NCBI GenBank assembly: GCA_021373015.1
Contig: JAJFTJ010000010.1
Coordinates: forward strand, 1 to 43,808
Reading direction: 5' to 3'
Length of the DNA: 43,808 nt
Source of the DNA: Nitrospiraceae bacterium
GTDB lineage: Bacteria > Nitrospirota > Thermodesulfovibrionia > Thermodesulfovibrionales > UBA1546
The notes under the pieces: generated by a model
The model's input: only the letters and a program-made list of their open reading frames with translations
Databases searched by the model: none
Told to the model about the DNA's origin: nothing
Position numbers and translations under genes: made by a program
Shown here: positions 7,990 to 24,412 of the stretch, in pieces
Layout of the letters: the number at the start of each line of letters is the position of its first letter
Numbering within the stretch: the stretch's first letter is position 1

Positions 7990-8334
7990 ATGCATGAAGT
8001 CTCGATAGCTCTCAGTATTATGGATATAATTGTCAAAAAATGTAGAGAAGAAAGCTGCAATAAAATAGACTCGGTCAGGCTCAAGATTGGAAAGGCTGCG
8101 GGTGTGATGCCTGATGCACTTTTATTTGCATTCGATAACATAAAAACAGACACGATCGCAAAAGACGCGGAGATGATAATCGATATCATCCCTCTGGGCG
8201 GAACGTGCAATAGCTGCAAGAGAGATTTTGATACAGAAGAAGCTTATGTTCTGGAATGTCCAAAGTGCGGTTCTGCTGATTTTGTGATAAATAAAGGGAA
8301 TGAGATGGAAATTATTGATATGGAGGTCAGCTGA
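7990..8334 (+). CDS. hypA: Hydrogenase nickel incorporation protein HypA
   Basis: HypA delivers nickel to the [NiFe] hydrogenase large-subunit precursor together with HypB. The 114-residue protein begins MHEVSIALSI, where Met1-His2-Glu3 forms the nickel site, and carries the structural zinc ribbon C73-x2-C76 and C90-x2-C93. The length is standard. It is the first gene of hypA-B-F-D-E. Its stop overlaps the hypB start (TGATG). No close Shine-Dalgarno is seen; an AGGGA lies about 12 bases upstream. The hydrogenase it serves is probably the one encoded on the opposite strand at 19457-14488. Confidence 0.95.
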   Translation: MHEVSIALSIMDIIVKKCREESCNKIDSVRLKIGKAAGVMPDALLFAFDNIKTDTIAKDAEMIIDIIPLGGTCNSCKRDFDTEEAYVLECPKCGSADFVINKGNEMEIIDMEVS

Positions 8335-8981
8335 TGAAAGTAAAAGTTGTTACACGAATACTTGAGGCGAACGAGCGCCTTGCTGAAGAAAACAAAAAAA
8401 GATTCAAGGAAGCAGGATTGTTTGTAATAAATCTTATGGGAGCTCCGGGCGCAGGAAAGACAACACTTCTCGAAAAAACAATTCAAAAACTAAAAGGAAA
8501 AGCAAAACTAGGTGTTATTGAAGGCGATATTGCAGGCTCTGATGATGCAGAGAGAATTAATGCTGCAGGCGTGCCTGTTGTTCAGATAAATACAGGAGGC
8601 GCATGCCACCTTGACGCTAATATGATAAGCGGAGTTCTGGGTGAACTTCCTCTCAAAGATATGAATATGCTCATAATCGAGAATGTAGGCAATCTGGTCT
8701 GCCCTGCAGAATTCAAGGTCGGCGAGAACATAAAGGCTATGGTTCTGAGCATCACCGAAGGGCATGACAAGCCTTTGAAATATCCGCTCATGTTTCAGGA
8801 ATCAAAGGCATTGGTGCTGAATAAGATAGACCTTGTTCCGTACACAAATGTTGATATTGAAAAAATAAAAAAAGACGCGCTCTCGCTCAATCCTGAGATA
8901 AAGATATTTGAGGTTTCATGCAGTACAGGCGAGGGCATTGACTTATGGGCTGAATGGCTGAACGGGCAGAGATCAAAGTAA
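8334..8981 (+). CDS. hypB: Hydrogenase maturation GTPase HypB
   Basis: HypB is the metal-binding GTPase that powers nickel insertion. The 215-residue protein has the P-loop in GAPGAGKTTLLEK (about 36-45), the metal-binding/dimer cysteine and histidine C91-H92 in TGGACHLDA, C123 in ENVGNLVCPAEF and the NKID guanine motif at 163-166. It lacks the histidine-rich N-terminal nickel store and the CXXCGC motif found in some HypBs, so it is the minimal type. It shares bases with hypA at its start and overlaps hypF by 28 bases at its end, pointing to tight translational coupling. Confidence 0.95.
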   Translation: MKVKVVTRILEANERLAEENKKRFKEAGLFVINLMGAPGAGKTTLLEKTIQKLKGKAKLGVIEGDIAGSDDAERINAAGVPVVQINTGGACHLDANMISGVLGELPLKDMNMLIIENVGNLVCPAEFKVGENIKAMVLSITEGHDKPLKYPLMFQESKALVLNKIDLVPYTNVDIEKIKKDALSLNPEIKIFEVSCSTGEGIDLWAEWLNGQRSK

Positions 8982-11278
8982 GAGGCATTGTTCAGGGCGT
9001 TGGCTTCAGACCCTTTGTCTATAATCTTGCGGTGTCGTTTAACTTAAATGGATTTGTGATCAATACTGCAGAAGGCGTTACAATCGAGGTTGAAGGCAGT
9101 GAGGTCTCAAGATTTATCGCCAAGCTTGGCACTGATGCTCCGTCTCTCTCAAAAATAACAGATATCTCGATATCCATTTTGCCTGAACACGGATATAAAA
9201 AATTCGAGATACTCGAGAGCGCAAAGAGCTTAGACACAGAAAAATTTACAATGGTCTCTCCTGATGTAACAGTCTGCGATGACTGCTTGAAAGAGATGTT
9301 TGATCCAAAAGATCGCCGCTATCTTTATCCGTTTATTAACTGCACAAACTGCGGCCCAAGATTTTCTATTACAAAGGCTGTGCCATACGACAGGCCTGAT
9401 ACAACAATGGCTGTTTTTAAGATGTGCAGAGAATGTCTGGCTGAGTATAAAGATCCTAAAAACAGAAGATTTCACGCTCAGCCGAATGCATGTCCCAAAT
9501 GCGGGCCGTCTCTGGAATTGAAAATTCTGAATCAGGATTTTAAGAATGTAAAAGGCAAGAATCCTCTTGAACATGCCATAACCCTGCTTAAACATGGAGC
9601 TGTCATTGCAATTAAAGGCATAGGGGGTTTTCATATTGCATGCGATGCTGAGAATGATGAGGCTGTTAAAAAACTCAGAGAGCGCAAACGCAGAAACAAC
9701 AAGCCGTTTGCATTAATGGCGTCTGAAATAAGAAGTATTAAGCTGTTTGCTAATGTATCGAAAGAAGAAGAGGATATGCTTTTATCAAACAGGCGTCCGA
9801 TAGTTCTTCTAAGAAAACAGGATAACCCCGAAAATAAATTCTCTGATTTTATTGCGCCGAATAATAAATATCTTGGCTTTATGCTCCCATATACGCCTCT
9901 GCATTATCTGCTTTTAAAGAACGAGCAGAATGAAAATTTATTTAATGCGCTTGTTATGACAAGCGGAAATTTTTCAGAGGAGCCGATTGTAAGAGACAAC
10001 AATGAGGCAATAGAAAAACTTTCAGCGCTTGCTGATGCTGTTCTGCTTCATAACAGAGATATTTTCATGCGCGTTGATGATTCTGTCCTAAGCACGCATG
10101 ATATTGAAGAAAAATCTCTTCCTGTATTTATACGAAGGTCAAGGGGATATGTTCCTGAACCGATTCCATTGCAGGGTGATGGGCCTGAGGTAATTGGCTG
10201 CGGAGCTGACATGAAAAATACATTTACGCTCACAAAGGGAAGTTTTGCAATATCAAGCCAGCATATCGGCGACATGGAAAATTACGAGACTTTAAAATTT
10301 TTTGAAGAAAGCTTTGAAAATATAAAATCTGTCTACAAAATAAATCCAACGGCAATAGGCCACGATATACACCCTGGTTATATGTCCACGCAATGGGCTT
10401 TAAAACAAGATCTCGAAAAATATCCTATACAGCATCATTATGCGCATATCGCATCAGTAATGGCTGAGCATGGAATTAACAAAAAAGTAATCGGAGCTGC
10501 ATTTGACGGAACAGGCCTTGGCACAGACGGAAAAATCTGGGGAAGCGAATTTCTGCTTGCTGATATCAATGGATTTGAACGACTGGGGCACTTTAAATAT
10601 ATCCCTCTGCCCGGAGCTGAGACCGCAATCCGCGAGCCTTGGAGAACCGCAGTCAGTTACATCTGTGAATCTATGGGCGAAGAAGCAATGGAATACCTTG
10701 ATAAAATCGGCTTTATAAAAAAATATAAAAAAGAAAATATTGATGCAATCATCAAAGTTATGAATTCCCGCGAATTTTCCCCTCTGTCATCAGGCGCAGG
10801 GAGACTCTTTGATGCGGTCTCTGCAATCACAGGCATATGCGATAAAAACACATTTGAGGGAGAGGCGGCAATTGCTCTGGAGGCAGTGATTAATGATGCA
10901 AAATACAGCAAGGATTATCCTGTGAATATTAAGAAAAGCGCAACTATCGTAATAGACTTTTCCCAGACAATACTCGAGATTCTAAGAGATGTTATCAGAG
11001 GAGAAGACAAAAAAATAATATCAATCCGTTTTCATAATACGATCGTTAATGTTATTATCAAAACAGTTAAAATTCTCAGCGAAAGACTGAATATCTACGA
11101 TGTTGTCTTGAGCGGCGGCACATTCCAGAACAGATATATAACAGAACGCACTGTAAGCGGCCTTTTGTCTAACAACATTAAAGTTTTTTTGAATAAAGCA
11201 ATGCCGTGCAATGATGCATGCGTATCACTCGGCCAGGCTTACATTGTGCGCGAGAGAATTAAAAATGAAAAGGGATAA
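8954..11278 (+). CDS. hypF: Carbamoyltransferase HypF
   Basis: HypF uses carbamoyl phosphate and ATP to carbamoylate the HypE C-terminal cysteine, the source of the active-site cyanides. The domains are in the normal order. The acylphosphatase-like domain carries GIVQGVGFRPFV with Arg19 and Asn37. The paired zinc fingers have C108/C111/C130/C133 and C158/C161/C180/C183. A YrdC-like domain spans about 200-390. The Kae1-like domain has HHYAHIASVMAEH near 494 and FDGTGLGTDGKIWGSEF near 517. The 774-residue length is typical. The ATG at 8954 lies inside the end of hypB and is supported by the conserved domain start. hypD follows after 6 bases. Confidence 0.96.
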   Translation: MAERAEIKVRGIVQGVGFRPFVYNLAVSFNLNGFVINTAEGVTIEVEGSEVSRFIAKLGTDAPSLSKITDISISILPEHGYKKFEILESAKSLDTEKFTMVSPDVTVCDDCLKEMFDPKDRRYLYPFINCTNCGPRFSITKAVPYDRPDTTMAVFKMCRECLAEYKDPKNRRFHAQPNACPKCGPSLELKILNQDFKNVKGKNPLEHAITLLKHGAVIAIKGIGGFHIACDAENDEAVKKLRERKRRNNKPFALMASEIRSIKLFANVSKEEEDMLLSNRRPIVLLRKQDNPENKFSDFIAPNNKYLGFMLPYTPLHYLLLKNEQNENLFNALVMTSGNFSEEPIVRDNNEAIEKLSALADAVLLHNRDIFMRVDDSVLSTHDIEEKSLPVFIRRSRGYVPEPIPLQGDGPEVIGCGADMKNTFTLTKGSFAISSQHIGDMENYETLKFFEESFENIKSVYKINPTAIGHDIHPGYMSTQWALKQDLEKYPIQHHYAHIASVMAEHGINKKVIGAAFDGTGLGTDGKIWGSEFLLADINGFERLGHFKYIPLPGAETAIREPWRTAVSYICESMGEEAMEYLDKIGFIKKYKKENIDAIIKVMNSREFSPLSSGAGRLFDAVSAITGICDKNTFEGEAAIALEAVINDAKYSKDYPVNIKKSATIVIDFSQTILEILRDVIRGEDKKIISIRFHNTIVNVIIKTVKILSERLNIYDVVLSGGTFQNRYITERTVSGLLSNNIKVFLNKAMPCNDACVSLGQAYIVRERIKNEKG

Positions 11279-11284
11279 TACAGG

Positions 11285-12349
11285 ATGAAACAGACTGCTA
11301 AAAAGATCAAAATGCTTACTGCCAAAATAGGCAGACCAATAAAACTCATGGAGGTTTGCGGAACACATACTGTCGCAATATTCAGACAGGGGATTAGAAG
11401 CCTGATACCGAAAGAAATAATTCTTTTGAGCGGACCCGGCTGTCCTGTCTGTGTTACTTCTATCAAGGATGTTGATTCTGCGTTAGCAATCGCGGGAATG
11501 GATGATGTGATACTAACCACCTTCGGCGATATGATGCGTGTGCCTGGAGGAGAAAAATCACTTGATGAGGCAAAGGCAGAGGGAATGGATATCAGAGTGG
11601 TTTACTCGCCGATCGATGCGCTCAAGCTGGCATTAAAAGAAAAACACCGCAAAGTGGTTTTTTTCGCAACCGGATTCGAGACAACTTCTCCTATAATTGC
11701 AGGAACCCTGCATGAGGCAGAAAGACTGAATGCAGAAAATTTTATGATATATTCCACGCATAAGCTGGTCCCTCCTGCATTGAGGGCGCTCCTTGCTTCT
11801 CCTGATATTTCTGTTGACGGGTTTATCCTCCCAGGACATGTGAGCACTATTATCGGGAAAAAACCCTATGAATTCCTGGCATCGGAATACAAAAAACCGT
11901 CTGCTATAACAGGCTTCAGCGCAAAAGATATACTTGATGGGATACTAATGATAGTGGAGCAGATAGCTGAGAACAGGGCTGAAGTCATGATCCAGTACAC
12001 TGATGTTGTTAGAGAAGAAGGAAATCCCAAGGCATACGGTATGGTATTAAAATATTTCGAACCTGAAGACGCATACTGGAGAGGAATCGGAATAATACCC
12101 GGAAGCGGATTAAAATTGAAAAAAGAATACAATTTATTCGATGTACTTCAAAGATATAAGATAGAAGTTCCGTATCATCCTGAACCTTCTGAATGTTCAT
12201 GCGGAGATGTTTTAAAAGGAATAAAGATACCTACTGAATGCCCTATGTTTGGGACAGGATGCACGCCTGAAAATCCTGTTGGGGCATGTATGGTCAGCAC
12301 AGAGGGAAGCTGTGCAGCTTATTATAAATACGGAGTTTTTAATGGATAG
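11285..12349 (+). CDS. hypD: Hydrogenase maturation scaffold HypD
   Basis: HypD, with HypC, is the [4Fe-4S] scaffold on which the Fe(CN)2CO unit is assembled. The 354-residue protein has the invariant CGTH at C25 and the redox pair GPGCPVC (C53, C56). It also has ATGFETTSP near residue 125, GFILPGHVSTIIG near 180 and the C-terminal iron-sulfur cysteines in ECSCGDVLKG, ECPMFGTGC and GACMVSTEGSCAAYY. hypC, usually just upstream of hypD, is instead on the opposite strand at 13647-13874. The end overlaps hypE by 8 bases. Confidence 0.96.
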   Translation: MKQTAKKIKMLTAKIGRPIKLMEVCGTHTVAIFRQGIRSLIPKEIILLSGPGCPVCVTSIKDVDSALAIAGMDDVILTTFGDMMRVPGGEKSLDEAKAEGMDIRVVYSPIDALKLALKEKHRKVVFFATGFETTSPIIAGTLHEAERLNAENFMIYSTHKLVPPALRALLASPDISVDGFILPGHVSTIIGKKPYEFLASEYKKPSAITGFSAKDILDGILMIVEQIAENRAEVMIQYTDVVREEGNPKAYGMVLKYFEPEDAYWRGIGIIPGSGLKLKKEYNLFDVLQRYKIEVPYHPEPSECSCGDVLKGIKIPTECPMFGTGCTPENPVGACMVSTEGSCAAYYKYGVFNG

Positions 12350-13340
12350 AATACGCTTGGGTCATGGAAGCGGCGGAAAGATGATGCATGAACTCATTTC
12401 AAATGAGATTGGAAAATCATTCAACATCACAGCATATAATGATTCTGCTGTTCTGGAAATAAAAAATGCTTCACGCATAGCTTATACAACAGACTCTTAT
12501 GTTGTCTCCCCTTTGTTTTTCCCGGGCGGAAACATAGGCGAGCTTGCTGTTTATGGAACAGTAAATGACCTTGCAGTTTCAGGTGCAGAACCCAGATGGT
12601 TAACTGCCGGGTTCATCTTAGAAGAAGGCTTTCTGATATCTGATTTGAAAAAGATTGTTGCATCCATGTCAGAGGCCGCAAAAAAAGCAGGGGTGAAGAT
12701 TGTTGCCGGTGATACCAAGGTTGTGAATAAAGGTAAAGGCGACGGAATATTCATCAATACATCAGGCATTGGCATTGTTTATGACAAGGTCTCTATATCT
12801 GCAAAGAACATAAAAACAGGAGATAAGATTATTATAAGCGGTGAGATTGGAAATCACGGCATATCGATTATGGCTGAGAGAAACGGGATTACATTTGACC
12901 CGCCTGTGATTAGCGACACAAGACCTTTAAATGGACTGGTCAAAAAGATGCTCGGTGTTACAAAAGATATTGGCTTTATGCGCGACCCGACAAGAGGCGG
13001 GCTTGCGACTACTCTGAAAGAAGCTGCTCTTGAATCCGGGAAATGTATCCGCATACAGGAATCAGAAATCCCTTTCACAGGACAGGTAAAAGGCGCTTGC
13101 GAGCTTTTAGGACTTGATCCTTTGTATATAGCAAATGAAGGAATACTTGCAGCTATTGTTCCTTCCAATCATGCAGAAAAGATTCTTGAGGCAATGCAGT
13201 CTCATGAATACGGGAAAGTATCTGCAATTATCGGAAGCATTGAGGAATCTCCAAACGGCATGGTATTGATAGAAACCAGCGCAGGCGGAACAAGGATGCT
13301 GGATATGCTGCAGGGAGAACAGCTTCCCAGAATCTGTTGA
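12342..13340 (+). CDS. hypE: Thiocarboxamide-dehydrating protein HypE
   Basis: HypE is the ATP-dependent PurM-like enzyme that dehydrates its own carbamoylated C-terminal cysteine to a thiocyanate. The start is at 12342 (MDRIRLGHGSGGKMMHE); the upstream in-frame codons belong to hypD read in another frame. GGAG lies just before this ATG. The 332-residue protein has the ATP-site RLGHGSGG, the TTDSYVVSPLFFPGG segment and AGDTKVV, and ends in the diagnostic PRIC with the modified terminal cysteine. It is the last gene of the hyp run and its stop abuts the convergent small membrane protein gene. Confidence 0.96.
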   Translation: MDRIRLGHGSGGKMMHELISNEIGKSFNITAYNDSAVLEIKNASRIAYTTDSYVVSPLFFPGGNIGELAVYGTVNDLAVSGAEPRWLTAGFILEEGFLISDLKKIVASMSEAAKKAGVKIVAGDTKVVNKGKGDGIFINTSGIGIVYDKVSISAKNIKTGDKIIISGEIGNHGISIMAERNGITFDPPVISDTRPLNGLVKKMLGVTKDIGFMRDPTRGGLATTLKEAALESGKCIRIQESEIPFTGQVKGACELLGLDPLYIANEGILAAIVPSNHAEKILEAMQSHEYGKVSAIIGSIEESPNGMVLIETSAGGTRMLDMLQGEQLPRIC

Positions 13341-13598
13341 TCATATTTTTCTGAATGTAAGAAATAAAACAAGCAGCAGAATGAACATAACCAGAACTGC
13401 TATCTTCCCCATCAACCTCAACAGCATGAGCATGAAAATTATAAGAATAACAATTGCGATAAAACGTCCCAGCTTGTTGTGTTTTATGAATTTTAACAGG
13501 CTGAATTTTTGTCCTTGCGAAAAACTTCTTATCTGAAGGAATACTAATCCTGCAAAGAAGATTAGAACTATAGCGATGATTACCGGCAGAAAGCGCAT
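13341..13598 (-). CDS. Small membrane protein, unknown
   Basis: The 85-residue protein is almost entirely hydrophobic, with an N-terminal membrane segment (about 4-21), a basic amphipathic middle (SLLKFIKHNKLGRF) and one or two further segments (about 47-82), ending TFRKI. It follows hypC by 48 bases at the end of the hydrogenase transcript, and its stop codon touches that of hypE. The ribosome site is weak. I do not recognise a family. It could be a hydrogenase-linked membrane factor or unrelated; the frame and hydrophobic pattern make a real gene likelier than not. Confidence 0.5.
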   Translation of the reverse strand: MRFLPVIIAIVLIFFAGLVFLQIRSFSQGQKFSLLKFIKHNKLGRFIAIVILIIFMLMLLRLMGKIAVLVMFILLLVLFLTFRKI

Positions 13599-13646
13599 TT
13601 TTCTAGTTCATCGCCCACAGGATTAAATACAACCAGATGGAGATTT

Positions 13647-13874
13647 TCACTCGGCAGAATTACTGAACATGGTTTTTATCAGATTTAAAGCATCCTCGGC
13701 AGCTTCTTGTTCAACCTTTTGTATCGCAAACCCAGCATGAACAAGAACATAATCTCCTATAAAGACAGTCTCCGGCAGAAGAAGAAGACTTACTTCTCTG
13801 CGTGCGCCGTATACATCTATTGTTGCCATCATATCATTTATTGAAATCACTTTTGAAGGCACGGCAAGACACAT
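13647..13874 (-). CDS. hypC: Hydrogenase maturation chaperone HypC/HybG
   Basis: The 75-residue protein begins with the diagnostic MCLAVPSKVI; Cys2 contacts HypD and the large-subunit precursor. The family motif GDYVLVHAGFAIQKV follows near residue 40. AAGGAGA precedes the ATG. It sits 14 bases after the protease gene in the structural operon rather than between hypF and hypD, like hybG in the E. coli hyb operon. It may therefore act both in HypCD assembly and as the chaperone of this large subunit (inference). Confidence 0.94.
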   Translation of the reverse strand: MCLAVPSKVISINDMMATIDVYGARREVSLLLLPETVFIGDYVLVHAGFAIQKVEQEAAEDALNLIKTMFSNSAE

Positions 13875-13888
13875 TTTAAATCTCCTTG

Positions 13889-14398
13889 TTATTGTTCTGA
13901 TTTATTAATCTTAATTCCAATTTTTTCCAATTCATCCGCAAGCATATCCGATATCTTTGGTACAGAAGATTTTACTATATCAGTCATCTCTAGGCCTGTT
14001 TTCAGTTCTGACGGCTCAATCCCTAAAAGAACAATCTGTTTAGGCATGCGTAATGTCAACGCTGCCGCTGCAAGCAGATCTGAAACCCCTATTTGATGAG
14101 GCGATATCTTTCCCGCAAAATATTTGGGAACTTCATCTCCCTCCATACGGATTATGCTCCCGGGTTTGGCGCCTGATTTTACTACATCAATAATAAAAAG
14201 ATTTTCTCTGTTTTCAATATATTCCAGAAGTTCTATCCCGCTTGTGCCGCCGTCTAATATCTCTACATCTTCAGGCAGAAAATATCTTTTTTGAAAATCC
14301 TCAACGACCCTTACTCCTGCGCCTTCGTCCATTAAAAGAATATTTCCTATGCCCATAATAAGGACTTTTGGTTTTGTTTCCGTAATGTTTTCTTTCAT
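13889..14398 (-). CDS. hybD: [NiFe] hydrogenase maturation endopeptidase (HybD/HyaD family)
   Basis: This protease trims the C-terminal peptide from the large subunit once nickel is inserted. The 169-residue protein has the family start VLIMGIGNILLMDEGAGVRVVE, with the nickel-sensing Glu in MDEGAG, the second acidic ligand in FIIDVVKSGAKPGS, and the third-ligand histidine in KISPHQIGVSDLLAAA. It follows the large-subunit gene, which carries the matching cleavable tail, after an 89-base gap containing a strong hairpin. hypC follows 14 bases later. Confidence 0.93.
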   Translation of the reverse strand: MKENITETKPKVLIMGIGNILLMDEGAGVRVVEDFQKRYFLPEDVEILDGGTSGIELLEYIENRENLFIIDVVKSGAKPGSIIRMEGDEVPKYFAGKISPHQIGVSDLLAAAALTLRMPKQIVLLGIEPSELKTGLEMTDIVKSSVPKISDMLADELEKIGIKINKSEQ

Positions 14399-14431
14399 AT
14401 TGTAGTTTAGCTTATTTTCCCTTTAAAATTG

Positions 14432-14487: not shown

Positions 14488-16188
14488 TTAGAATGCCGTT
14501 ACTTTAACAATCTCTTTCTTGTTTTTGTCAACAACATGGATTGCACATGCAAGACACGGGTCGAACGAATGGATTGTTCTTAATGCCTCAAGAGGCTTTT
14601 CAGGATCAGCAATTGGATTGCCTATCAAAGATGCCTCATAAGGTCCGAGATCATCTGACTGATTTCTTGGTCCTGCATTCCATGTTGAAGGAACAACGCA
14701 CTGGTAATTCTTGATCTTGCCGTTCTTTATAACAACCCAGTGCGAAAGAACTCCTCTTGGAGCTTCATGGAATCCAAAGCCTCTGATCTCTCCGCTTGGG
14801 AATTCAGGTTTGTTATATGTAGCAGTATCTCCCTTGCCGATATTGTTGATCAGAAGGTTCCACTGTTTTAAAAGCACTTCGTGCAGAACAGCGCATCTGA
14901 TTGCGCGCGCCGCATGACGGCCTATTGTGGAGTGGAGCGCTGATATCGGCACTTTTGCTCCAGCAAGAGCGCTTACTGTTGCGAGAGCTTTTTCAGCATA
15001 TTTCTTTGCAATAGGATTCCCTGATGCATAAAGAGCAAGCACGTTTGCCAATGGACCAACCTGCGCAGGCTTACCGTTGAATGACGGAGACTTTACCCAT
15101 GAATACTTTCCGTCGTCCTTAAAATCCGTGTATTTAGGAACTGTGTCCTCTTCCCATGGATGTTTAGTCCAGTTGCCGTCATACCATGAATGTTTTATGC
15201 TTTCTTTTACCCCATTCTTGAACAGGTCATCCTGAAAACTTTTTATTGGTTTGAATGCGCCTATGTTTCCATTTTCGATGTAACCGCCGGCAAGCTCGAA
15301 GGTCGTGCCTTTAGTGTCCAGAGGGAACTCAGGAACTGAAAGATAGTTGGTCACGCCCGAGCCGTATTTTGTCCAGTCGGCGTAGAAAGCTCCGACAGCG
15401 CAGACATCAACGAAATAAACATCGTTAATGAATCTTCCTATCTCATCAATGATTGTCTTGATGAAATAAAGTTTCTCAACTGTGAGCGTTGATGGGCTGC
15501 TTGGATTGATTGCATTAGCAACACCTCCTACAGCCAGATTCTGGATATGTGGCGTTTTCCCGCCAAGCACAGAGACTATCTTATTTGCTGTTCTCTGATA
15601 TTCAAGAGCCTGCAGATAATGAGATGCTGCAAGCAGATTGACTTCAGGAGCAAGCTTCATTGCAGGATGCCCCCAGTATCCATTTGCAAAGATACCGAGC
15701 TGTCCTGAACTTACAAATGTCTTTAGTCTCTCCTGAACATCTTTAAAGTGCTGCTGGCTGTTTATTGGCCATTTTGACACGCTCTGTGCGAGTCTCGATG
15801 TTTTAGCAGTATCTGCTTTCAAGGCTGAAACAATATCCACCCAGTCAAGCGCTGACAGGTGGTAGAAGTGAACGATATGATCGTGAATAGCGTGTGCAGC
15901 AACAATCAGGTTTCTTATGTACTGTGCGTTCAATGGTATCTCAAGCTTGAGTGCATTTTCGACTGCTCTTACTGATGCAACAGCATGAACAGTTGTGCAA
16001 ACACCGCATATTCTTTGTGTGAAGAGCCATGCTTCGCGGGGATCCCTCCCTTTCAGTATTACTTCAATTCCGCGCCACATTTGGCCCGATGACCAGGCAT
16101 TTTTAACTTTGCCGCCATCTATCTCGCAGTCTATTCTAAGATGGCCTTCGATTCTTGTTACAGGGTCAATCGTAATTCGCTTTGCCAT
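14488..16188 (-). CDS. hybC: [NiFe] hydrogenase large subunit (group 1, Hyb type)
   Basis: The 566-residue catalytic subunit holds the NiFe(CN)2CO site. The L1 motif is RICGVCTTVHAVAS (C61, C64) and the C-terminal motif is DPCLACAIH (C545, C548). After His551 comes a 15-residue tail ending VTAF, the part expected to be removed by the protease encoded next. All four ligands are cysteine, with no selenocysteine. GGAGGAG precedes the ATG. It follows the HybB-like gene by 20 bases in the order small subunit, HybA, HybB, large subunit, protease, HypC. This matches the E. coli hyb operon apart from the missing hybE and hybF. It should oxidise H2 in the periplasm and feed quinones. Confidence 0.96.
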   Translation of the reverse strand: MAKRITIDPVTRIEGHLRIDCEIDGGKVKNAWSSGQMWRGIEVILKGRDPREAWLFTQRICGVCTTVHAVASVRAVENALKLEIPLNAQYIRNLIVAAHAIHDHIVHFYHLSALDWVDIVSALKADTAKTSRLAQSVSKWPINSQQHFKDVQERLKTFVSSGQLGIFANGYWGHPAMKLAPEVNLLAASHYLQALEYQRTANKIVSVLGGKTPHIQNLAVGGVANAINPSSPSTLTVEKLYFIKTIIDEIGRFINDVYFVDVCAVGAFYADWTKYGSGVTNYLSVPEFPLDTKGTTFELAGGYIENGNIGAFKPIKSFQDDLFKNGVKESIKHSWYDGNWTKHPWEEDTVPKYTDFKDDGKYSWVKSPSFNGKPAQVGPLANVLALYASGNPIAKKYAEKALATVSALAGAKVPISALHSTIGRHAARAIRCAVLHEVLLKQWNLLINNIGKGDTATYNKPEFPSGEIRGFGFHEAPRGVLSHWVVIKNGKIKNYQCVVPSTWNAGPRNQSDDLGPYEASLIGNPIADPEKPLEALRTIHSFDPCLACAIHVVDKNKKEIVKVTAF

Positions 16189-18320: not shown

Positions 18321-19457
18321 CTACCTCACTTTTTTATTATCTTTATTTTCTTCTTCGGATTCACCAAGTTTTTTAGCAACTGATACGCCTGCTCCGATTG
18401 CTGCGCCTGCAATACCTGCAACAACTGCAGCGCCGAGAACTGTTGCGCCGCCGCTCTTCTCTTCAACGATTCGCGGATATGTGTCTGGTGGGGTAAAGTT
18501 TTTAACCTTAGCAACAGTATGAAGCGGTATATTGAAGCCTACGCCTTTTTCTGTACAGCCGAAACATGGATGTCCAACTCCAACAGGCCATGTGCCTGCT
18601 CCTGCTCCGGTGTCGCCAAACTGAATTGACGGACAGTTTGAATATGTTTCTGGTCCTTTGCATCCAAGTTTATAGAGACACCAGCCTTTTCTATGACCAT
18701 CGTCTCCGAACTGTTTTGCGAATCTTCCTGCATCATAATGAGGTCTGCGTTCGCAATTCTCATGTATAAGCTCGCCGTATGCGAATTTAGGTCTGCCTTT
18801 ATCGTCAAGTTCGGGAAGTTTTTTAAATGTCAGAAAGTGAATTACAGTTGAAAGAAGATTGTATGGATTTGGCGGACATCCCGGGATTGCTACAACAGGC
18901 TTGTCTTTAATAATTTCTGATACAGGTTTAGCGCCGGTTGGATTTGGACCTGCTGACGGTATCCCACCCCATGATGCACATGAGCCCATTGCAATGATCG
19001 CTGCTGCATGAGGCGCTGTTTCCTTTAGAATCTCGAGTGCGGTTTTTCCTGCAATCTTGCAGTATATCCCATTGTCTTTTGTAGGGATTGAGCCGTCGAC
19101 TACGAGAATGAATTTCCCCTTGTTTTCTTCGATGGATTTTTTCTTTAAAGCCTCGACCTGATGTCCAGCTGCTGCGCAGAGAGTTTCAGAGTAGTCGAGA
19201 GAAATGAGATCAAGAATAAGATGTTCCAGTGTAGGGTGAGTTGACCTTAATAAAGACTCAACGCATCCGGTACATTCCTGGAATGACAGCCAAATTACCG
19301 GCGGTCTTTTGGGGTTAATTATTGCCTCGGCAATTTCTGCTCCCATGCCTAGAGGCAGCCCCATACTTGCAGCCATGACAGTACAGAATTTCAGAAAATC
19401 TCTTCGCGATACTCCGCCAAGCCGTTTTCTGACAGACTCAAAATCATGCTTGTTCAT
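18321..19457 (-). CDS. hybO: [NiFe] hydrogenase small subunit (HybO type)
   Basis: The 378-residue iron-sulfur subunit carries three FeS clusters. A twin-arginine signal SRRDFLKFC (R18-R19) directs export of the folded complex. Cluster ligands are visible in FQECTGCVES (C62, C65), AIIAMGSCASWGG, VVAIPGCPPNP, the H-x2-C-type NCERRPHYDAG region, WCLYKLGCKGP, YSNCP and HPCFGCTE. A C-terminal helix (GAAVVAGIAGAAIGAG) anchors it, and a charged tail follows. An AGGAGG site precedes the ATG. It heads the structural operon. Confidence 0.96.
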   Translation of the reverse strand: MNKHDFESVRKRLGGVSRRDFLKFCTVMAASMGLPLGMGAEIAEAIINPKRPPVIWLSFQECTGCVESLLRSTHPTLEHLILDLISLDYSETLCAAAGHQVEALKKKSIEENKGKFILVVDGSIPTKDNGIYCKIAGKTALEILKETAPHAAAIIAMGSCASWGGIPSAGPNPTGAKPVSEIIKDKPVVAIPGCPPNPYNLLSTVIHFLTFKKLPELDDKGRPKFAYGELIHENCERRPHYDAGRFAKQFGDDGHRKGWCLYKLGCKGPETYSNCPSIQFGDTGAGAGTWPVGVGHPCFGCTEKGVGFNIPLHTVAKVKNFTPPDTYPRIVEEKSGGATVLGAAVVAGIAGAAIGAGVSVAKKLGESEEENKDNKKVR

Positions 19458-20495: not shown

Positions 20496-21860
20496 ATGAG
20501 CGATATAAATAACAGAAAAAAACTCTTAGAGGCTGACAGAAAATTCATCTGGCATCCATTCACGCAGATGAAAGAGTGGGCTGAGACCGAGCCTGTCATC
20601 ATCTCTGAAGCAAGAGACTGTTTCATAAAAGACATTGACGGCAGATGGTATCTCGACGGAGTGTCATCAATCTGGGTGAACATCCACGGCCACAGAAAAA
20701 AAGAGATTGATGAGGCAATAAAAGAACAAGTTGATAAAGTCTCGCACTCAACACTTCTTGGATTAAGCAATGTTCCGGCAATAAAGCTTGCAGAGAGACT
20801 TGCAAAGCTCATGCATGATTCTGGCTTTAATATTTCTAAGACTTTTTATTCTGATAATGGTTCAACATCAGTTGAAGTCGCATTAAAGATGGCATTCCAG
20901 TATTGGATACATAAGGGAGTGAAAGGCAGAAACACATTTCTCTCTTTGAACAACGCATATCATGGAGATACATTGGGCGCGGTAAGTGTCGGCGGCATAG
21001 ATATTTTTCACAAGACATTCAAGCCATTGTTGTTCAAAACATATAAAGCTCCGTCTCCATACTGCTACAGGTGTGAACTTAAACTTAGTTATCCGAGTTG
21101 CAAAATGGCGTGTCTTAAAAAAATGGAGGATATTCTAAAAAAATATTCATCCAGCATCGCTGCAGTTATAATCGAACCGCTGGTTCAAGCAGCAGGCGGA
21201 ATGATTGTCTCGCCAGAAGGATATTTAAAAGGGGTCAGAGATCTATGCACAAAATATAATGTTCTAATGATAGCTGATGAGGTTGCAACGGGATTCGGAA
21301 GAACAGGGAAGATGTTTGCCTGCGAACATGAAAAAGTAACCCCGGATATAATCTGTCTTTCGAAAGGAATTACAGGTGGATATCTGCCTTTGTCAGTAAC
21401 AGTCACAAACAATGAGATCTATAATGCATTTCTTGGCGAGTTCAAAGATTTAAAAACATTTTTCCACGGTCATTCATACACAGGAAACCCTATTGCATGC
21501 GCAGCGGCTCTGGCATGTCTTGAGATATTCGAGAAAGAAGAAACACTGAAAAAACTTCAGCCTAAAATCCAGATGCTTAAAGAGTGGCTCAAAGAAATAT
21601 TATCCATGCCGAGTGTTGGAGACGTCAGAAACAAAGGGCTTATGGCAGGAGTTGAATTAGTCGAGAATAAAAAAACTAAAAAGCCGTATCAATGGGAAGA
21701 TAAAATTGGATGGAAGATTGCAAATTATGCGAGAGAAAATGGAGTCTTCTTAAGACCACTTGGAAATGTGATTGTAATAATGCCGCCTTTGAGCATAAGC
21801 GAGGTGAATCTAGAGCAGATGCTTGTGGTGGTAAAAAACGCAATTAGTGGAGTACAATAA
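20496..21860 (+). CDS. bioA: Adenosylmethionine-8-amino-7-oxononanoate aminotransferase
   Basis: BioA converts KAPA to DAPA in biotin synthesis using SAM as amino donor and PLP as cofactor. The 454-residue protein shows the BioA-specific start IWHPFTQMKEW, the LDGVSSIWVNIHGH segment, YSDNGSTSVEVALKMA, the NAYHGDTLGAVSVGG block, the PLP aspartate in IADEVATGFGRTG and the PLP lysine K290 in SKGITGGYLPL. An inserted CYRCELKLSYPSCKMACLKK segment near residue 190 has four cysteines, a pattern I associate with bacterial BioAs outside enterics. Other bio genes are not in the window. It is followed by an OsmC-family gene, with which it may share a transcript. Confidence 0.95.
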   Translation: MSDINNRKKLLEADRKFIWHPFTQMKEWAETEPVIISEARDCFIKDIDGRWYLDGVSSIWVNIHGHRKKEIDEAIKEQVDKVSHSTLLGLSNVPAIKLAERLAKLMHDSGFNISKTFYSDNGSTSVEVALKMAFQYWIHKGVKGRNTFLSLNNAYHGDTLGAVSVGGIDIFHKTFKPLLFKTYKAPSPYCYRCELKLSYPSCKMACLKKMEDILKKYSSSIAAVIIEPLVQAAGGMIVSPEGYLKGVRDLCTKYNVLMIADEVATGFGRTGKMFACEHEKVTPDIICLSKGITGGYLPLSVTVTNNEIYNAFLGEFKDLKTFFHGHSYTGNPIACAAALACLEIFEKEETLKKLQPKIQMLKEWLKEILSMPSVGDVRNKGLMAGVELVENKKTKKPYQWEDKIGWKIANYARENGVFLRPLGNVIVIMPPLSISEVNLEQMLVVVKNAISGVQ

Positions 21861-21882
21861 AACTGATTTTCAGGTGAATAGA

Positions 21883-22344
21883 ATGGAAAACGAACATGAG
21901 AACATAGACCTTAGCTGCCATGATGAAAAGAACAGGCATTTACTTAAAACTACACTAAATCTTGAGAAGGATTTAGTTTTTAAAGCAAGAACACAGAGCG
22001 GTTACGAGATTGATTTTGATGCCAATGTAGAGTGGGGATGCATGCCCACAGAGTCTTTGCTTATGAGTCTTTCAGGCTGTCATGCAATATATGTCGTGTC
22101 TTTTCTTAGAAAAATGAAGGTTGAGATTGCAAGCTTTAAGATGAACATATCAGGCGAGAGAAGATCAAACCCTCCGCAGTATTTCAGATCAATCGAAATG
22201 GTTATAAATATCTCAGGCAAAAACATTACTCCTGAAAAAATGGATAAGGCTATATCTTTATCAAAGGAAAAATACTGTTCTGTGCAGCATTCGCTCAGAA
22301 AAGATTTAAAGATTAACGTGAAATATAATATAACGAATGAGTAA
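21883..22344 (+). CDS. OsmC/Ohr-family protein
   Basis: The family reduces organic hydroperoxides with two cysteines. Both are present: the first in LMSLSGCHAIYVVSFLRK and the second in SKEKYCSVQHSLRKD. The ARTQSGYEIDFDANVEWG strand and PTESLLMSL also match OsmC/YhfA-type proteins. I start at the ATG at 21883, where AGGTGA lies at the right distance; an in-frame GTG at 21847 inside the end of bioA would add 12 residues. The protein has 153 residues. It lies 22 bases after bioA and overlaps the next gene by 8 bases. Confidence 0.85.
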   Translation: MENEHENIDLSCHDEKNRHLLKTTLNLEKDLVFKARTQSGYEIDFDANVEWGCMPTESLLMSLSGCHAIYVVSFLRKMKVEIASFKMNISGERRSNPPQYFRSIEMVINISGKNITPEKMDKAISLSKEKYCSVQHSLRKDLKINVKYNITNE

Positions 22345-22789
22345 AAAATCAATCATACTGCTTTTTCTGTTGATACTTTCTCCAGTAATCATATATCTTC
22401 TCTGGCCATCTGATGAGGCAAGGATCAAAAAATTGATTAAAGAAGGCTCAGCGGCAGTGGAGAAAAAAGACCTTGATGTTGTGATGTCAAAAATCTCATT
22501 CAATTATCAGGATGAATACGGAGTGTCATATCTGATCCTTAAAAAGGTTCTCGAAAACCAGTTCAAGGCAATGAATGACATAAAGATTGAATATGAAAAC
22601 CTTAAGATAAGCGTTAAAGAAGAAAAGGCAAGTGCAGAGCTTGATATCAGGGTGATAGCAACTATAGGGAATGATACAGGATACATAATAGGAGACATAA
22701 AAGCCCCTATGCATTTAAAATTCTCTCTGGAAAAAGAACGCGCAAAGTGGCTTGTGATCAAGACAGAAGGACTTAAAATATCATTTTAG
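22337..22789 (+). CDS. Membrane-anchored NTF2-like protein, unknown role
   Basis: The 150-residue protein has one N-terminal hydrophobic anchor or uncleaved signal (SIILLFLLILSPVIIYLLW). The soluble domain begins with an SDEARIKKLIKEGSAAVEKKDLDVVMSKIS helix pair and ends in alternating strands, the usual layout of NTF2-like/DUF4440-type cone domains. No catalytic motif is evident. The start overlaps the OsmC gene end by 8 bases. Its 3' end overlaps the convergent selenoprotein gene by 9 bases. Confidence 0.7.
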   Translation: MSKKSIILLFLLILSPVIIYLLWPSDEARIKKLIKEGSAAVEKKDLDVVMSKISFNYQDEYGVSYLILKKVLENQFKAMNDIKIEYENLKISVKEEKASAELDIRVIATIGNDTGYIIGDIKAPMHLKFSLEKERAKWLVIKTEGLKISF

Positions 22790-23005
22790 ATTTTTTATTA
22801 GTATGATTACTTCCTGTTCTTCCGGAAATTTTCCTGCCTGATGCTTCGAATATATAATGTTTCCATCCACTATTACATCGAAAATGCCGTTATTTCCGGG
22901 AAGCAGATCGCTTCTGTACCCAACCTCTTTTTCAATTCGAGCCGCCAGGCTGGCAGCTTTAGGAAGATAGTTTCAAGGCACACAATATGTAATTGATATT
23001 TTCAT
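22781..23005 (-). CDS. SelW-like (Rdx family) selenoprotein with in-frame UGA
   Basis: Reading the minus strand from the ATG at 23005 (GGAG ribosome site seven bases upstream) gives a 74-residue product if the TGA at 22975-22973 is read as selenocysteine. The start is MKISITYCVPUNYLPKA, with Cys8-x-x-Sec11, the redox motif of SelW/SelT/SelH thioredoxin-like proteins. The rest keeps the Rdx signatures SLAARIEKE, LLPGNNGIFDVIVDG and IYSKHQAGKFPEE, and ends at a TGA at 22783-22781. Fifteen bases after the UGA codon a stem GCTGCC/GGCGGC with loop AGCCT (22957-22941) forms. Its position, and the G in the first two loop bases, fit bacterial SECIS elements. It follows pdxA by 19 bases as the last gene of yjbQ-pdxA-selW. 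A pseudogene is the alternative, but every other feature of the frame is intact. Confidence 0.85.
22941..22957 (-). promoter_or_regulatory. Bacterial SECIS-like hairpin
   Basis: A 6-bp stem GCTGCC/GGCGGC with one G-T pair and the loop AGCCT begins 15 bases after the UGA codon, inside the coding sequence. Bacterial SelB recognises such small stem-loops at this distance, with a G among the first two loop bases. Confidence 0.7.
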
Positions 23006-23024
23006 TGTATTCTCCTTCAGAAAA

Positions 23025-23999
23025 TTATATCCTGAGCCTTACTGCGAGTTTTATAGCTTCGATCATGCTTGATGGATTTGCGATCCCCTTCCATGCAATG
23101 TCATAAGCAGTGCCATGGTCAGGCGATGTTCTGATGATGGGAAGACCGATTGTTATATTTACTCCTTCTTCAAATGCAGTCATCTTAAGTGGAATTAAGC
23201 CCTGATCATGATACATGCAGATAACAATATCCAGTTCCTGATTATATGCTTTGTAAAATACTGTGTCTGGCGGATATGGACCTGTTACAGTAACTCCATG
23301 TTTTTTTGCCTCTGCAATTGCAGGAACAATCTCTTTTATCTCTTCATCTCCGAACATGCCTGCTTCTCCTGCATGAGGATTGAGGCCTGCAACTGCAATG
23401 CGGGGATGCTTAATGTCAAGCATGTCAGCGGCTTTTTTAGCAATCAGTATTGTTTTTAAAACTTTTTCTTTTGTAATTTGTTTAGGCACGGTTTTAATAG
23501 ATGTATGAATCGTTACAAGCAGGACTTTTAATTGTCCGCCGATAAGCATCATTGCGTAGTCTTTTGTCCCAGTAAATTCAGCAAGCATCTCAGTATGACC
23601 GGGCCATTTCAAACCCGCCATATTCAATGATTCTTTTGAAATTGGCGCTGTCACAATTGCATCAACTTCTTTATTCAAGGCAAGTTCAACAGCTTTTTGG
23701 ATGTAACTTACACATGCCTTTCCATTTTCAGCAGATGGTCTGCATGTATGAAATTTTTTCAGAAGCTTCAAGTCAATAAGATTTATGCATTCAGGGTCTG
23801 ATATGCATTCATCTGCTGACTGGATTGTTTTTATTTTAATTTGAGATTGAAGAAGGCTGATTATTTCTTCGATAACTAATCTGTCGGCGATAATAATTGG
23901 CGTGCAGAGGTTCGTGATCTTATTAGATGAGACGGCCTTGATAATAATTTCAGGGCCTACGCCCGCAGCATCGCCCATTGTTATAGCAATCTTTTTCAT
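23025..23999 (-). CDS. pdxA: 4-hydroxythreonine-4-phosphate dehydrogenase
   Basis: PdxA oxidises 4-phosphohydroxy-L-threonine in the DXP-dependent pathway to pyridoxal 5'-phosphate. The 324-residue protein begins [21 protein letters not shown] and carries [11 protein letters not shown], the metal-site histidine block [26 protein letters not shown] and [16 protein letters not shown], all family-specific. [20 protein letters not shown] ends the protein. It overlaps yjbQ by 4 bases at its start and is followed by the selenoprotein gene. Confidence 0.95.
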
Positions 24000-24412
24000 T
24001 CCCCTATTATCTTAACCAAAACCCTTTTTTTTCTTTTCCCGTCAAACTCGCCGTAAAAAATCTGCTCCCACGGCCCGAAATCAAGTTTAGCGTTTGTAAT
24101 AGCAACTATAACTTCCCTCCCCATAATCTGGCGCTTTAAATGCGCATCAGCATTGTCTTCAGCGTTATTGTGTTTATATTGTGTGACAGGTTCATTAGGC
24201 GCGAGTTTTTCAAGCCATTTATCAAAATCAGAATGCAGTCCCGATTCGTCATCATTTATAAAAACAGAGGCTGTGATGTGCATTGCATTAACAAGCACAA
24301 TGCCCTCGCTTATTTTGCTTTCTCTCAGACACTCCTCAACCTGCGGAGTGATGTTTATAAACGCCCTTCTTGACGGGACATTGAACCACAGTTCTTTGCG
24401 AAATGTTTTCAT
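23996..24412 (-). CDS. YjbQ/UPF0047 family protein
   Basis: The 138-residue single-domain protein has the signatures of UPF0047: [50 protein letters not shown] and the C-terminal [28 protein letters not shown]. Family members are reported to have weak thiamine-phosphate synthase activity, though the true role is unsettled. It is the first gene of the minus-strand yjbQ-pdxA-selW unit, with ATGA-type overlap to pdxA, so a link to phosphorylated pyridine/thiamine chemistry is plausible but not shown. Confidence 0.9.

Follow-up and report, generated by a model that had tools for sequence, protein, structure and literature searches.

SelW-like selenoproteins with a CxxU motif and a SECIS element have been described from bacteria since 2005 (PMC1088965, PMC1794560, PMC9312934). 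They comprise 48 genes in Sargasso Sea data (PMC1088965) and 10 in genomes (PMC1794560), and they are tabulated as Rdx proteins with CxxU (PMC9312934); their substrate and partner are unknown (PMC1088965). In Epsilonproteobacteria, selW was completely missing from annotation (PMC4607533). How does the locus studied here compare? The window—the whole 43,808-nucleotide stretch of DNA that was analysed, from a Nitrospiraceae bacterium—almost certainly holds a further SelW-like selenoprotein gene at 23005-22781 on its minus strand, decoded via SelB and a bacterial SECIS. As with the described bacterial proteins, its product is an Rdx protein with CxxU, the SECIS lies just downstream, and relatives have Cys homologues; it differs from them in host lineage (Nitrospirota, Thermodesulfovibrionales) and neighbours and in nothing of substance. 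With the Campylobacterota SelTWH (NF041051) and Epsilonproteobacteria SelW (PMC4607533), it shares its size, its having been missed by annotation, and a minimal 5-6 bp hairpin with an invariant G.

The minus-strand frame opens at an ATG (23005-23003), meets a TGA at codon 11 (22975-22973), and runs on for 63 sense codons to its own terminal TGA (22783-22781). Read through the first TGA, it yields a 74-residue product, MKISITYCVPUNYLPKAASLAARIEKEVGYRSDLLPGNNGIFDVIVDGNIIYSKHQAGKFPEEQEVIILIKNLK, which carries the motif C8-V-P-U11 (CxxU). The ATG lies 19 bases past the end of pdxA, and the gap (23006-23024, minus strand) contains a strong ribosome-binding site, GAAGGAG, directly 5′ of the start. 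An earlier note on this DNA had proposed a hidden 74-residue Rdx protein here, and both the frame and the family searches agree: the product matches Pfam PF10262 (Rdx) over its full length with 58.7 bits (cut-off 22.6) and NCBIfam TIGR02174, also over its full length, with 48.9 bits (cut-off 34.2). The same note held that standard calling leaves the area blank, and the ORF listing indeed shows nothing there. Score, CxxU motif, and thioredoxin-like fold together place the product in the Rdx/SelT-SelW-SelH family (PF10262, TIGR02174), and a genome-wide search for this family found no second Rdx gene in the window's genome. The closest curated model by score is the Campylobacterota SelTWH equivalog (NF041051, SelTWH_Campy), which is the nearest model for Sec forms in the window's class; its cut-off of 88 bits is passed by the TGA forms of genomes G006, G025, and G301 (89-94 bits), and because the window protein reaches 74 bits, we do not assign it to that equivalog. 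A plasmid search gave remote matches only (<41% identity). The chance of a 63-codon open frame after the TGA is 4.5%, not rare taken alone; it is the family match (E 7e-16) and the comparative data, not the length of the frame, that exclude a chance frame.

How are selenocysteine and cysteine distributed among the homologues? Searches found Rdx genes in 10 genomes out of the 101 that make up the relatives set, and in 26 out of 396 taken from the phylum, counting that of the window itself. Leaving aside a partial TGA-bearing match in G265, nine of the resolved genomes (the window's own, G000, together with G006, G010, G025, G171, G244, G246, G301, and G347) have TGA at position 11 and the remaining resolved ones TGC or TGT (i.e., Cys), so that homologues lacking both Cys and Sec at this position, which the earlier note had seen as fatal to its reading, did not turn up among them. 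The named Cys-form relatives are Nitrospirota, Thermodesulfovibrionales among them. A Thermodesulfovibrio MAG (L033) and a Thermodesulfovibrionales MAG (L035) share their SelW proteins with G056 and G041, two genomes from the window's order. In a tree of 25 SelW proteins, eight of the nine Sec forms are divided from the main group of Cys forms by a 98/95 branch; with two long branches and a further, divergent group of Cys forms, the tree does not fix how often Sec and Cys were exchanged.

Is there a SECIS at the expected distance from the UGA? The minus strand at 22958-22940, AGCUGCCAGCCUGGCGGCU, folds into a hairpin of 8 bp with loop GCC (about -11.4 to -12.1 kcal/mol) that begins 15 bases downstream of the UGA, with 14 unpaired bases between. 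Its loop region, AGCCU (22951-22947), keeps the conserved G without the usual following G or U. Published bacterial SECIS limits are a loop of 3-9 nt, a stem of 4-16 bp, MFE <= -7.5, a G at loop position 1 or 2, and a UGA-to-loop distance of 16-37 nt (PMC13188914). The hairpin lies within all of them, at a UGA-to-loop distance of 22 nt, whereas, of the window's 1,694 TGAs, only 1.4% satisfy our in-house version of these constraints and 0.24% reach -10 kcal/mol. Folded alone, it failed to beat only 2 of 200 shuffles; in a 56-nt folding window, its z-score is only -0.8. A strict in-house scan passed four of seven TGA forms, the hairpins of G010, G244, and G246 falling short of the published energy threshold, and a single one of the 25 Cys rows; some genomes appear twice among these rows. 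An Rfam scan of the window returned two tRNAs only and no SECIS, and no hairpin stands at the terminal TGA of the selW-like gene or of its two sister-genus copies.

In all nine TGA forms, the hairpin keeps its register, starting 15 bases downstream of the UGA with no gaps. Their 6-bp core stem is paired in 88.9% of cases, with matched changes on both sides in four of the six pairs, and their covariation score is 0.481, against 0.157 in shuffled sets (0 of 500 reach it) and at most 0.185 for slid partners; as the TGA genomes are related, this amounts to about three independent events. Loop positions G26 and U29 (alignment numbering) are invariant. Agreement with the published limits and the retained covariation uphold the earlier suggestion of a stem-loop placed like a bacterial SECIS. 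Could the pairing instead be a by-product of the conserved Ala-rich protein sequence (KAASLAARI)? The helix residues are indeed conserved in Cys forms too, but Cys forms of similar protein sequence lack the hairpin (47.6% paired, no excess covariation), and in G025 and G244, where AASLAA has become ALRLRD/E, matched changes have kept the stem. We consider this origin of the hairpin improbable and regard the structure as a SECIS.

Is the gene a pseudogene, in which TGA replaced a Cys codon and the remainder is a decaying remnant? Close Cys-form homologues in the same order and the absence of the gene from most genomes of the family fit such a history. However, the post-TGA codons of the window gene and its two sister-genus copies give dN/dS values of 0.20, 0.24, and 0.19; at 78-84% identity, most of the differences fall at third codon positions. 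The sister-genus copies have neither a further stop nor a frameshift, and the TGA occupies the same codon in nine genomes. Decay is thus very improbable, and the comparison indicates that the frame past the UGA is under purifying selection, translated, and kept.

Can the organism decode UGA as selenocysteine? Its genome, 1.69 Mb in 22 contigs with a listed completeness of 100%, has selA (611 bits), selB (383 bits), and selD (334 bits), all above cut-off, and one tRNA-Sec gene (selC; 69 bits, above cut-off) that ARAGORN also calls as tRNA-SeC with anticodon TCA. All four genes on which the earlier note had made its reading depend are therefore present. In SelD, an in-frame TGA likewise occupies the canonical Sec site (AAGUAGK), as it does in two formate dehydrogenase alpha subunits (FdhA), within RVUHAPTV and RIUHSATV; the SelD gene and the two FdhA genes lie on contigs C14 (L019), C21 (L069), and C7 (L073). 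Judged from these motifs, UGA appears to serve as a Sec codon in at least three other genes of this genome, whose selenoproteome was sampled through families. Standard annotation would likely truncate or split all three. Other candidates from the window were set aside: the TGA of HypE (12249-13367) is a natural stop, since HypE must end in PRIC, and RelA-type ORFs that apparently run through TGA were likewise judged to end at natural stops. The window also carries a NiFe hydrogenase operon with large, small, Fe-S, and membrane subunits (14488-16188 and 18321-19457, both minus strand), accompanied by hyp maturation genes at ~8312-14405; it is not of the NiFeSe type, as its large subunit has Cys (DPCLACAIHVV).

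A UGA aligned with Cys, a bacterial SECIS-type hairpin downstream of it, and selA, selB, selC, and selD in the same genome are thus found together, the combination that marks a bacterial selenoprotein gene, and the UGA at 22975-22973 is very probably read as selenocysteine. A Sec-free decoding of this codon, as Trp or some other standard amino acid by way of leaky suppression or a general recoding of UGA, is hardly credible: the open frame would allow it, but UGA exchanges only with Cys among the homologues, the full Sec system is present, and TGA is an ordinary terminator elsewhere, including at the end of selW itself and of hypE (PRIC-TGA). A sequencing or assembly error that turned TGC or TGT into TGA, one base away, is very unlikely, as eight other, independent genomes of the phylum have the same TGA at codon 11 with the hairpin kept. 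None of the three findings that the earlier note had said would refute its reading was thus borne out.

Does the decoding system account for which genomes have the Sec form? Across 17 genomes checked, which included Sec-form, Cys-form, and SelW-less ones, a selA match (16 over cut-off, 1 partial) and a tRNA-Sec were found in every case. Having selA and tRNA-Sec thus does not explain the choice between Sec and Cys: the tested Cys-form genomes carry both. A second tRNA-Sec family match above the gathering score (58-62 bits) occurs in G002, G006, G059, and G077, each of which possibly has two selC genes.

An AlphaFold model, run on an alignment of the window protein and its Nitrospirota homologues, shows a thioredoxin-like fold of strand-helix-strand-strand-strand-helix (pLDDT 96), with the first strand at residues 3-8, followed by the CxxU pair, and a helix at 14-28. 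The best Foldseek match in the PDB is the SelW-related structure 2fa8 (TM 0.92), and the predicted fold is shared with the bacterial SelW-related structures 2fa8, 2obk, and 2p0g (TM up to 0.92-0.95), which we take to be Cys forms, and with mouse selenoprotein W (2npb, TM 0.69). Eukaryotic selenoprotein W uses a different SECIS, located in the 3′ UTR. The product is most likely a small thiol/selenol oxidoreductase. The frame, family, machinery, UGA/Cys exchange, hairpin covariation, purifying selection, and predicted fold come from the data, whereas Sec insertion itself, the redox chemistry, and a cellular partner are inferred. In the proposed course of decoding, ribosomes would reach UGA11, where SelB carrying Sec-tRNA-Sec (selC) would bind the hairpin that starts 15 bases downstream, leading to insertion of selenocysteine; translation would then continue and end at the second UGA, where there is no such hairpin. 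In the resulting 74-residue thioredoxin-like product, the Cys8-x-x-Sec11 pair would probably cycle between selenenylsulfide and selenol/thiol, giving a small thiol-disulfide oxidoreductase.

What do the neighbouring genes suggest? Upstream on the same strand are pdxA (23025-23999; PF04166, 384 bits) and yjbQ (UPF0047 by family match; 23996-24412), which shares 4 bases with the start of pdxA. The order of pdxA-selW, the convergent ORF, the OsmC-family gene, and the aminotransferase genes is kept in the sister genus (G006 and G010), but yjbQ is not adjacent to pdxA there. Of the yjbQ-pdxA-selW unit described earlier, the pdxA-selW pair therefore stands, whereas the attachment of yjbQ is a local arrangement only. 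Nor does selW face OsmC, as had been stated: its direct convergent neighbour is a 150-aa ORF (22337-22789, plus strand) whose tail overlaps the selW tail by 9 bases, and the OsmC-family gene (21847-22344, plus strand; PF02566, 58.4 bits) lies one gene further. This ORF, of unknown family and without a Pfam match, has an N-terminal hydrophobic segment and is 67-68% identical at the same place in the sister genus. The proposed small redox context holds insofar as the sister genus has the OsmC and 150-aa genes in the same position, but not for yjbQ.

In both sister-genus genomes, pdxA-selW also lies head to head with selB (L060 815-2683 in G006; L061 755-2620 in G010). PdxA makes PLP, which SelA needs. 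The window's own genome lacks this link, however: there, selB is on another contig than selW. That the SelW-like selenoprotein of this family of Thermodesulfovibrionales is functionally tied to Sec synthesis or decoding, and might handle selenium or sense Sec supply, is accordingly a long shot drawn from gene order.

Overall, the window gene is an ordinary member of the known SelW family, and it leaves the picture of selenocysteine biology unchanged. Its recognition rescues a gene missed by standard calling, adds a fourth selenoprotein to the window's genome, and provides, from a single order, a clean series of SelW proteins in Sec and in Cys form.
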